Assembly: GCF_026798195.1 (NCBI RefSeq)
Contig: NZ_JAPQEZ010000001.1
Coordinates: 1 to 64,000, forward strand
DNA from: Lentilactobacillus senioris
Lineage (GTDB): Bacteria; Bacillota; Bacilli; Lactobacillales; Lactobacillaceae
Reading direction: 5' to 3'
Length of the DNA stretch: 64,000 nucleotides
Shown: in pieces, positions 4,577-37,101 of the stretch
Numbering within the stretch: the stretch's first letter is position 1
Layout: each line of letters begins with the position of its first letter
Position numbers and translations under genes: made by a program
The notes under the pieces: model-generated
What the model was told of the DNA's origin: nothing
What the model saw: the letters and a program-made list of their open reading frames with translations, nothing else
The model's database searches: none

Positions 4577-5110
4577 ATGGCTGCAAGTTACTTACGGCAA
4601 GCAACAAACGAGGATCTCCCAGAAATCAAAAATATCATTCATGAGGCGATTGCCTTCTTACACGAACAAGGCATCGATCAATGGCAAAAGGGCTACCCGA
4701 ATGATGGGGATCTGGAAACAGACGTTAAAAATGGGATTGCCTACGTTTTAGTTGTGGACAAACAAATTGCCGGTTTTGCTGCATTGCACCAAGGGCTAGA
4801 TATCAATTATCTTAGCATCCACGACGGCGAATGGATTAACGGAGTTGAAGGTCGTTATACCGCCATCCACCGGATCGCCGTGTCATCAAAATTCCGAGGT
4901 CAACACCTATCACAACGGTTAATGAGCGGTCTAATTACCGTTTCCTCCGTTTTGGGTTATCACGATATCCGAATTGATACACATCCTGATAACAAGGGAA
5001 TGCAACACGTTATTACTAGCAATGGCTTTGAAAAACGAGGCATTATTTACATGAAAGAAAATGAACACGAAGAAACCCCTCGTTTCGCTTACCAATTGAT
5101 CATTGATTAA
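4577..5110 (+). CDS. GNAT family N-acetyltransferase
   Basis: A predicted acyl-CoA-dependent N-acetyltransferase with unknown acceptor. The fold is visible as an N-terminal acceptor region with IDQWQKGYPND, a central strand VLVVDKQIAGFAALHQ, and the acetyl-CoA-binding segment IAVSSKFRGQHLSQRL (R/Q-x-x-G-x-A-like loop). The C-terminal NGFEKRGIIYM strand is typical. ATG 4577 is chosen because AGAAGGA sits 10 nt upstream, whereas the in-frame GTG at 4568 would touch the ribosome-binding site. A small membrane-protein gene follows after 42 bp. Substrate cannot be told from sequence. Confidence 0.88.
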   Translation: MAASYLRQATNEDLPEIKNIIHEAIAFLHEQGIDQWQKGYPNDGDLETDVKNGIAYVLVVDKQIAGFAALHQGLDINYLSIHDGEWINGVEGRYTAIHRIAVSSKFRGQHLSQRLMSGLITVSSVLGYHDIRIDTHPDNKGMQHVITSNGFEKRGIIYMKENEHEETPRFAYQLIID

Positions 5111-34626: not shown

Positions 34627-34657
34627 TAAAAAACACAGCCCTAGCTGTGTTTTTTAT
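34627..34657. terminator. Bidirectional terminator
   Basis: AAAAAACACAGC pairs with GCTGTGTTTTTT. It lies between the truncated gene and the convergent acetyltransferase gene. Confidence 0.87.
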
Positions 34658-35244
34658 TGTCTAATTTCATTTGGATCCAATTCCCTAATCACTTTTGCCG
34701 GATTACCTGCAATCACCAGATTATCCCCAAAGGATTTAGTGACCACCGAACCAGCTCCTACAATCACGTTATCACCTAACGTAACTCCCGGGGTGATGAT
34801 CGCACCGCCACCAATCCAACAGTTATCCCCAATGTTAATACTTGCGCCAGTCCCAATCCAATGAGTTCGACGTTCAATATCAAACGGATGACTAGCAGAA
34901 TACATTTGCACGCGGGGAGCTAACAAGGCATTTTTGCCAATATTAATGGGACAGGTATCTAGCAAAATACAGTTCCAGTTAGCAAAAAAATTTTCACCTA
35001 CGTGGATGTTATAACCGTAATCACAGCTAAAGTCGGGGCGCACTTCAATCTTTTCTCCAGTGGACCCAAACAAGTCCTTAGCGATTCGGGCATTACGGTC
35101 TAAGTCAGTTAACGTTGTCGTGTTGAGTTCCTTAAATAGTTGTTGAGCCCGAATACGATCGGCCACCAACTCTGGATCTTGTACGTTGTAAGGTTCTTCA
35201 GCAATCATTTTTTCTCGTTCACTTCTAGTGTCTTCAATTGGCAT
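34654..35244 (-). CDS. Sugar O-acetyltransferase (maltose/galactoside acetyltransferase family)
   Basis: Transfers acetyl from acetyl-CoA to a sugar hydroxyl; often viewed as detoxifying non-metabolised sugars. 196 aa: an N-terminal helical Mac domain (SEREKMIAEEPYNVQDPELV) and a left-handed beta-helix with hexapeptide repeats (IGKNALLAPRVQ, IGDNCWIGGGAIITPG, GDNVIVGAGSVV). The catalytic His is in MYSASHPFD. Two AraR-type boxes flank its promoter, which links it to arabinose use. Confidence 0.92.
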   Translation of the reverse strand: MPIEDTRSEREKMIAEEPYNVQDPELVADRIRAQQLFKELNTTTLTDLDRNARIAKDLFGSTGEKIEVRPDFSCDYGYNIHVGENFFANWNCILLDTCPINIGKNALLAPRVQMYSASHPFDIERRTHWIGTGASINIGDNCWIGGGAIITPGVTLGDNVIVGAGSVVTKSFGDNLVIAGNPAKVIRELDPNEIRQ

Positions 35245-35261: not shown

Positions 35262-35277
35262 ATTTGTCCGGATAAAT
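35262..35277. promoter_or_regulatory. AraR operator 1 of the acetyltransferase gene
   Basis: ATTTGTCCGGATAAAT, a clear palindrome of the AraR class, over the predicted transcription start. Confidence 0.75.
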
Positions 35278-35281
35278 ACGA

Positions 35282-35310
35282 TTGTAAATGATAATATTTA
35301 TCCGGGCAAC
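35282..35310 (-). promoter_or_regulatory. Promoter of the acetyltransferase gene
   Basis: Minus strand TTGCCC (35305-35310), 17-bp spacer, TACAAT (35282-35287). It lies between two AraR-type boxes. Confidence 0.65.
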
Positions 35311-35312: not shown

Positions 35313-35337
35313 TTTTTATAAATGATATTTAAGACAC

Positions 35338-35591
35338 AAAAAAAGCAGGAGCTTTTACTCCCACCTAATTGGCATGTCGGTCGGGGTGGACCTTATTAAA
35401 GAACCAATTATGAAAGATGAATTACCGAAGACACCTGGTTTCCCTACTAGAAAAGCGAAAATGAGCATTACGTTTTCTCTGCTCATTTACCTAACAAACC
35501 ATCAATGGCGTCCCACTATTTAGCTGTCTAGTTCGCTGACATAGTACCACCGCTTTGGTGTAACCAACCAAATAGCAACTATCATCTTTCA
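35338..35591 (-). ncRNA. Candidate structured non-coding RNA of about 250 nt
   Basis: An independent transcript on the minus strand with a promoter at 35598-35627 and a terminator at 35341-35365. The predicted fold has a 9-bp closing stem (GAAAGATGA with TCATCTTTC), a 5' subdomain closed by CTATTT/AAATAG containing hairpin TTGGT-TAC-ACCAA, and a second arm built from GACGCC/GGTGTC, TGGTTT/AAACCA and AAATGAGCA/TGCTCATTT. No open frame of note lies inside. I could not match it to tmRNA, RNase P, SRP, 6S or a known riboswitch. It begins right after the cardiolipin synthase stop codon. Confidence 0.6.
35341..35365 (-). terminator. Terminator of the candidate ncRNA
   Basis: Minus strand GGGAG-TAAAAG-CTCC, then TGCTTTTTTT. 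Short stem with a seven-T run on the minus strand. Confidence 0.7.
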
Positions 35592-35597
35592 AATTAA

Positions 35598-35627
35598 TTA
35601 TAGAGCGCCTCTCACCATAAGATCAAT
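35598..35627 (-). promoter_or_regulatory. Promoter of the candidate ncRNA
   Basis: Minus strand TTGATC (35622-35627), 18-bp spacer, TATAAT (35598-35603). The -10 is perfect. It begins 14 bp after the cardiolipin synthase gene and no gene on this strand follows for about 350 bp. Confidence 0.65.
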
Positions 35628-35640
35628 TATCTTGCTTGAA

Positions 35641-37101
35641 CTACAAGATCGGCGATAGTAACCGACTAAACGTTTGCTTGAACTTCAGCCAAGTAGACTG
35701 CTGTTCAAACATTTCTGGCGTTTGTAATTCACTAAAACTAATATCATTTTGATAAATATCCGTCAATTCCGCCGCCAACTTCTCATCATACAAGAAAGCA
35801 TTAATTTCAAAATTCAATTTAAAACTACGATAATCCAAGTTAGCTGACCCTACCGAAGCAATTTCGCCATCGATCACCATCGTTTTGGCGTGTAAGAAGC
35901 CATTTTGATAGTAGTAGATTTTTACCCCTTCATCGGCTAATTGATGCGCGTAATACTGCGTCGCCCGATAAACGAAGGCGTGATCCGGCATACACGGCAA
36001 CATAATTCGCACATCTACTCCGGATTTAGCCGCAATTCGCAACGCATCCAAGACACTATCATCTGGGATCAAATATGGGGTTTGAATCCAGCAGTACTGT
36101 TTAGCTTTTAAGATCATTTTAATATACCCCATCTTGATTTGCTGCATCTCAGAGTTGGGGCCGCTGGAAACAATCTGCATGTCCACCAAGCCTTTGGTGG
36201 TAGTAACTGGAAAATACTTCGGATCTACTTGAGCCTCATTGATTTGGTCATGCGGACTAGTAGCATTCCAATCTAAAATAAATCGTGATTGCAATCCAAA
36301 GACTCCAGAACCAATAATTCGTAGATGGGTATCGCGCCAGTTACCGAACTTTTTCTTCCGGCCTAAATACTGATCGCCGATATTGTAACCACCGATATAG
36401 CCAATCATCCCGTCGATCACCACAATTTTTCTGTGATCCCGAAAGTTTAACCGAAAATCCAAGATAGCAGAGTGGGTATTCAAGAATGGATAGGCATAGC
36501 CGCCAGCTTTGCGCAAAGGTTCAAAGAACTTCCGGGTTGTCCCTAAGGAGCCCCAAGAATCATAAATCACCCGTACTTCTAAGCCTTCTTGCGCTTTTTT
36601 AACCAATAAATTTAAAATTTCATTACCAATTTGATCGTTGTAAAACGTGTAAAATTCAATATGAATACTTTTTTTAGCCGCTTCAATATCTTCAATCAAG
36701 CGGTGAAACAAATCAGTTCCCTTAGTAAACACCTTGACTTTATTTTTCCGAGCCAAAAACGCCGCATCGGTTTCTTTAAACATCTGGACCACGGTTTGAT
36801 TTTTTTCCGCCACCAAATCAGCAGGAGTCTGATCCTGGTTGCCCGCTTGTTTTCGTTGTTCAGTTAAGCGATCATTAATTTGCATTTGCACGTGGTTATG
36901 TAATCTAAATAATCGGTTTTGGGGGAGTTGCCGGCCTACAAAAGCATAAGCAACAAACCCCACGATTGGTAGAAAAATTAACACTAAGAGCCAAGCCCAA
37001 ATGGCCGCAATATCCCGTTTTTCTTTAAAAACAGTTATGATAGCTAAGACAGCATTGACCACTACAATTACATTAAAAACCGCTTGCCAGTCAATTGACA
37101 T
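35641..37101 (-). CDS. cls: Cardiolipin synthase
   Basis: Condenses phosphatidylglycerol molecules to cardiolipin at the membrane. 486 aa with two N-terminal membrane helices (about 5-24 and 33-54) and two phospholipase-D HKD motifs: His223/Lys225/Asp230 in FRDHRKIVVID and His404/Lys406/Asp411 in FLHAKTMVID. Both motifs are complete. Standalone gene, with the candidate ncRNA promoter directly after its stop. Confidence 0.96.
   Translation of the reverse strand: MSIDWQAVFNVIVVVNAVLAIITVFKEKRDIAAIWAWLLVLIFLPIVGFVAYAFVGRQLPQNRLFRLHNHVQMQINDRLTEQRKQAGNQDQTPADLVAEKNQTVVQMFKETDAAFLARKNKVKVFTKGTDLFHRLIEDIEAAKKSIHIEFYTFYNDQIGNEILNLLVKKAQEGLEVRVIYDSWGSLGTTRKFFEPLRKAGGYAYPFLNTHSAILDFRLNFRDHRKIVVIDGMIGYIGGYNIGDQYLGRKKKFGNWRDTHLRIIGSGVFGLQSRFILDWNATSPHDQINEAQVDPKYFPVTTTKGLVDMQIVSSGPNSEMQQIKMGYIKMILKAKQYCWIQTPYLIPDDSVLDALRIAAKSGVDVRIMLPCMPDHAFVYRATQYYAHQLADEGVKIYYYQNGFLHAKTMVIDGEIASVGSANLDYRSFKLNFEINAFLYDEKLAAELTDIYQNDISFSELQTPEMFEQQSTWLKFKQTFSRLLSPIL

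Follow-up and report, generated by a model that had tools for sequence, protein, structure and literature searches.

A cls-linked structured RNA of Lentilactobacillus, very likely a new family without an Rfam relative

Here, we describe a structured, apparently non-coding RNA that lies behind the cardiolipin synthase gene cls in 23 of the 24 Lentilactobacillus genomes searched, in a single copy each, and that, judged from its sequence, is very likely real and new at the family level. In the window, by which we mean the whole 64,000-nt stretch of DNA analysed, it was first predicted as a candidate small RNA of a new structured kind that follows cls, and the conservation and covariation seen in relatives, together with the lack of an Rfam hit, uphold that prediction. 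The position, promoter, compensated helices, terminator, single copy per genome and want of an Rfam relative are established at the level of sequence. We consider it likely that the RNA stands alone and acts in trans, a judgement that leaves the step of protein binding aside. The features of the window locus are as follows.

35641..37101, minus strand: cls, encoding a cardiolipin synthase of the PLD family; this upstream neighbour is conserved
35597..35626, minus strand: promoter of the RNA, TTGATC, 18-nt spacer, TATAAT (promoter scan; the -10 box is kept in homologues)
35336..35592, minus strand: the RNA with its terminator, some 250 nt in all (predicted transcript; start placed from the -10 box)
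35582..35590, minus strand: closing stem P1, 5′ strand, GAAAGATGA (predicted fold and covariation; the main-subtype equivalent is GAAAGGU/ACCUUUC)
35516..35575, minus strand: arm A, an outer helix CTATTTGG/CTAAATAG bearing two hairpins (fold and covariation)
35528..35544, minus strand: hairpin CUAUGUCAGCGAACUAG with loop CANCG, the internal element common to the main subtype
35430..35512, minus strand: arm B, helices GACGCC/GGTGTC, TGGTTT/AAACCA and AAATGAGCA/TGCTCATTT (compensatory changes in G002)
35412..35420, minus strand: closing stem P1, 3′ strand, TCATCTTTC (predicted fold and covariation)
35336..35366, minus strand: rho-independent terminator, stem 35366-35343 plus T run (scan; compensatory changes in the L. 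senioris stem)
34654..35244, minus strand: maltose acetyltransferase type gene, the next co-directional gene (its place is not conserved in other species)

Both the promoter and the rho-independent terminator of the original prediction are present, and its claim that the unit holds no notable open frame agrees with a longest frame of 43 aa on the RNA strand of this region. Taken alone, the promoter in the window carries little weight, since promoter-like sites are as frequent in shuffled sequence (5 found in the promoter scan, 5.8 expected by chance). The promoter evidence gains its weight from the homologues, in all 23 of which a TATAAT or TATATT box stands at a fixed spot, 4 nt (once 6 nt) before the first RNA base. 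A terminator follows P1 by about 40–70 nt in most homologues, and three main-subtype loci lack a good one in the stretch scanned. In L. senioris, the terminator stem is preserved by compensatory changes relative to the window. A conserved small open frame starting at the AUG after AGGUGA was considered and rejected as coding, because the frame stops after 2–3 codons in several species. A mobile origin was likewise set aside, as the window RNA has no phage match and a main-subtype RNA no plasmid match.

The predicted fold of the window RNA has an energy of -79.6 kcal/mol (z -3.55), and 0 of 200 shuffles are as stable. It contains the predicted closing stem and all four of the helices named with it, and comparison with L. 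senioris and a third species, G002, supports helices among these. For example, GACGCC/GGTGTC is replaced by GAAGTC/GACTTC, and TGGTTT/AAACCA by AGGTTT/AAACCT. Over the three sequences, 93.5% of pairing is kept across 58 pairs, 10 of which are changed on both sides (0 of 500 shuffles), in a structure derived from the same alignment that was used to score covariation; the consensus energy lies at z -5.9 against column shuffles. Independent support for the window fold comes from the helices that had been named from the window alone and prove to be compensated in G002.

The window comes from a Lentilactobacillus genome whose nearest neighbour is L. senioris, and a DNA search with the window RNA is convincing only in that species, where the RNA is 86% identical. 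When the region following cls was read in each of the 24 Lentilactobacillus genomes, related elements came to light in many of them, each consisting of a -10 box, GAAAGGUGA, a hairpin CUAGGUCAGCG, ACCUUUC and a terminator. A covariance model built from nine sequences (R1) finds one strong copy (E 1e-19 to 1e-29) in each of 20 genomes, which define the main subtype. In the window, L. senioris and G002, an RNA of matching length occupies the syntenic position and forms the diverged subtype; in G020, a genome of 1.2 Mb, no RNA of either subtype was recognised. Copies of the main subtype lie directly behind cls or one gene further, except that in G010 cls and the RNA are on separate contigs. Ten species (L042, L043, L045, L047-L053) have an extra gene between cls and the RNA, by eye a small alarmone synthetase-like or pentapeptide-repeat-like gene, and here the RNA stays about 50–60 nt from whichever gene precedes it. 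When a model of the 20 was run on 398 genomes from 40 genera of the family, 39 of them other than Lentilactobacillus, no further copy came up under strict filters that may lose weak matches. Just behind cls in three loci of another genus, g5 (L171, L173, L174), we observe GGTGGTACCRCGG and then a terminator-like stem, an arrangement resembling a T-box leader.

The main subtype folds into the closing stem P1, helices P2, P3, P4 and P5, the P6 hairpin with its CANCG loop, and the P7 hairpin. An unfitted MAFFT alignment shows pairing in 94% of cells, with 8 pairs changed on both sides, which 0 of 500 shuffles equal; sliding the partners by one column cuts pairing to 40–44%. In the fitted alignment of the 20, which is biased towards the covariance model, 96% of cells pair and 12 of 42 pairs are changed on both sides. 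Sequence conservation is strong within the helices as well. Outside the helices, conservation is confined to short local stretches, namely the CANCG loop and, in the internal loop between P4 and P5, a GA that faces GUA, which may resemble a bulged-G motif. The longest near-contiguous conserved unpaired stretches are two of 5 nt each, CANCG and GNGUA, and no such run of 7 or more is seen. The main subtype can also form an alternative 5′ hairpin, AGGUGA/UCACCU, which is 99% pairable, with covariation that rests on one sequence, and which excludes P1 and P2. In most main-subtype sequences the unfinished chain is predicted to favour this hairpin; at full length it is 7–16 kcal/mol less stable than P1/P2, where the two can be compared. 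It is possible that the 5′ hairpin serves as a folding intermediate or a switch.

Do the two subtypes belong to one family? Compared directly, the window RNA and the main subtype are only marginally similar (31 of 300 shuffles). G002 provides a bridge: its local score is 83 against the window (shuffles 20.3 ± 3.4; 0 of 300) and 51 against the main subtype (shuffles 26.8 ± 3.5; 0 of 300), and its match to the main-subtype model is precisely the P5-P6 hairpin. The window RNA itself scores 6.6 bits with the main-subtype model, through the closing stem only, and we therefore file it as a diverged subtype; helices P2 to P7 of the main subtype (model R2) are not found in it. Since direct similarity is marginal, we assign it to the family on the strength of its place, its promoter, P1, the CANCG hairpin and the G002 bridge. 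The window RNA lies behind cls, with a TATAAT-type box 4 nt before P1 and a terminator behind, and shares the CANCG hairpin and, by way of G002, a traceable homology. The best explanation of these sequence relations is that it represents a diverged copy of the cls-linked Lentilactobacillus family.

A more distant relative may exist in Secundilactobacillus. Secundilactobacillus folii has a longer RNA behind cls (L006 4607-4880, within the locus 4599-4960), with promoter, terminator and a fold z of -3.7. A similar RNA lies behind cls in L165, of a genus (g37) that is probably the same as that of S. folii, and the two resemble each other strongly; L163 and L164 of g37 lack the longer RNA at this place. 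The Secundilactobacillus RNA is like that of Lentilactobacillus in place, promoter, P1 (GAAGGUU/AACCUUC), P2 (GACCAAUU/AAUUGGUC) and the linker between, and differs in its 250–275 nt body and unlike interior. Homology is only suggested, since there is no significant sequence similarity between the two, and we regard the Secundilactobacillus RNA as a possible longer relative.

Rfam offers no counterpart. In the window there is no match at gathering score, and on the RNA strand of this region none up to E 10; at gathering and lax thresholds, nothing relevant appears for the homologues or for the Secundilactobacillus RNA. The signatures reported missing from the outset, those of tmRNA, RNase P, SRP RNA, 6S RNA, T-box and the lysine and cobalamin riboswitches, indeed have no Rfam covariance-model match in the window, and the same holds for all other riboswitches in Rfam. 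A literature search found no described Lentilactobacillus or cls-linked RNA.

It could be argued that the element acts in cis, either as a 3′-terminal part of the cls mRNA or as the leader of the next gene. Wherever both share a contig, the RNA lies 44–121 nt behind a co-directional upstream gene. The original prediction dismissed a leader on the ground that nothing co-directional follows, which is incorrect: the acetyltransferase gene (35244-34654) follows on the minus strand, starting about 90 nt past the RNA terminator. The conclusion nevertheless holds on other grounds: which gene lies downstream, and on which strand, differs between species, and a leader of the acetyltransferase gene is rejected for that reason. 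The RNA also has its own promoter in 23 of 23 homologues, another gene separates it from cls in 10 genomes, and a terminator follows in most; altogether, we judge a cis element very improbable. (At 35262-35310 of the window, where the acetyltransferase gene has its promoter region, lies an operator-like inverted repeat, CCGGATAAATA/TATTTATCCGG, kept in L. senioris.) A chance fold or decaying repeat, devoid of any functional RNA, might likewise present a single promoter-like site, which means little. The compensated helices, the syntenic position shared by 23 of the 24 genomes and the single copy speak against it, and with covariation refuting it as far as sequence can, this explanation is barely credible. 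We favour instead a stand-alone RNA, which would be transcribed from its own promoter, fold as a closed multi-branched body with its 5′ end sealed by P1, and act in trans; in the main subtype, the AGGUGA/UCACCU hairpin would yield to P1/P2 once the 3′ end is made. As to how such an RNA might work, the leading candidate, held tentatively and at somewhat less than even odds, is a protein-binding scaffold with the CANCG hairpin loop as recognition site. Ranked next, and rather unlikely in our estimate, is a small RNA of the antisense type, which would use exposed loops to base-pair with mRNAs and need its fold only to present them. Its size, own promoter and terminator would fit such an RNA, as would the conservation of the CANCG hairpin loop in both subtypes. 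However, the absence of a conserved exposed run of 7 or more favours a structured protein-binding site over a classical seed, and the helices are strongly conserved in sequence too. Indirectly, the evidence favours protein binding over base pairing.

The relation to 6S RNA deserves separate comment. In lactic acid bacteria, 6S lies between rarA and uspA (PMC8414754). The Rfam model RF00013 (SsrS) has no match in the 24 Lentilactobacillus genomes. Since RF00013 is insensitive in this family, we built a Lactobacillaceae model from true 6S hits; it detects 6S in 140 of the 201 genomes of the family, which represent 27 of its 40 genera. In Lentilactobacillus it returns only five weak hits, the best of which (E 0.005, G015) is antisense inside a 598-aa frame and was taken as chance. 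Moreover, in the seven Lentilactobacillus genomes in which this place was read, a small membrane ORF comes immediately after rarA, so that the usual 6S site, which lies past rarA and ahead of the small ORF that precedes uspA, has no space for it. Canonical 6S, said to be near-universal in lactic acid bacteria, thus escaped detection in Lentilactobacillus and in a further 12 genera of the family that were searched. The gene behind rarA starts no more than 13 nt from the rarA stop in L129-L131, L134, L140, L141, L145, L147 and L153, where this was read. A genus without detectable 6S raises the question of what, if anything, does its job there, and the cls-linked RNA might be a moved, unrecognisable 6S, or an unrelated RNA that does its RNA-polymerase job after 6S loss. 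Like the Lactobacillaceae form of 6S, it has a folded body of about 180 nt, a closing stem, one copy, a strong promoter of its own and a terminator. Yet it bears no sequence similarity to 6S above shuffles and no score with the 6S model, its covarying fold is branched, whereas 6S forms a rod that has a large central bubble and ends in an apical hairpin, and it lies behind cls rather than between rarA and uspA. In addition, S. folii has canonical 6S together with the possible relative of the cls-linked RNA, an argument that is supportive and not conclusive because that RNA's sequence is unlike the Lentilactobacillus one. Finally, in four genera without a 6S match (g40, g49, g51, g53), no RNA of this sort follows cls at the places that were readable. 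By sequence and fold, the cls-linked RNA does not appear to be a recognisable 6S RNA, and we consider the 6S reading as a whole improbable. Slightly more doubtful still is the specific scenario in which Lentilactobacillus lost 6S and the unrelated cls-linked RNA took over global control of RNA polymerase; if true, one of the best-conserved regulatory RNAs of bacteria would have been replaced by a non-homologous one.

The RNA behind cls thus very likely represents an undescribed family with strong covariation, missing from Rfam and present in 23 of the 24 genomes of a genus that matters in silage and food fermentation. Its narrow distribution sets a bound on how essential it could be. What stays constant between the subtypes is the place, the promoter, the closing stem and one hairpin; the remainder of the fold is remodelled, which makes it a good case of shape change in a structured RNA. 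Several structured non-coding RNAs with their own promoter, among them raiA, OLE and ROOL, have no known function. The cls-linked RNA differs from these in matching no Rfam family, and is like them in its conserved multi-helix fold, intergenic position, lineage-restricted distribution and independence of any particular downstream gene.
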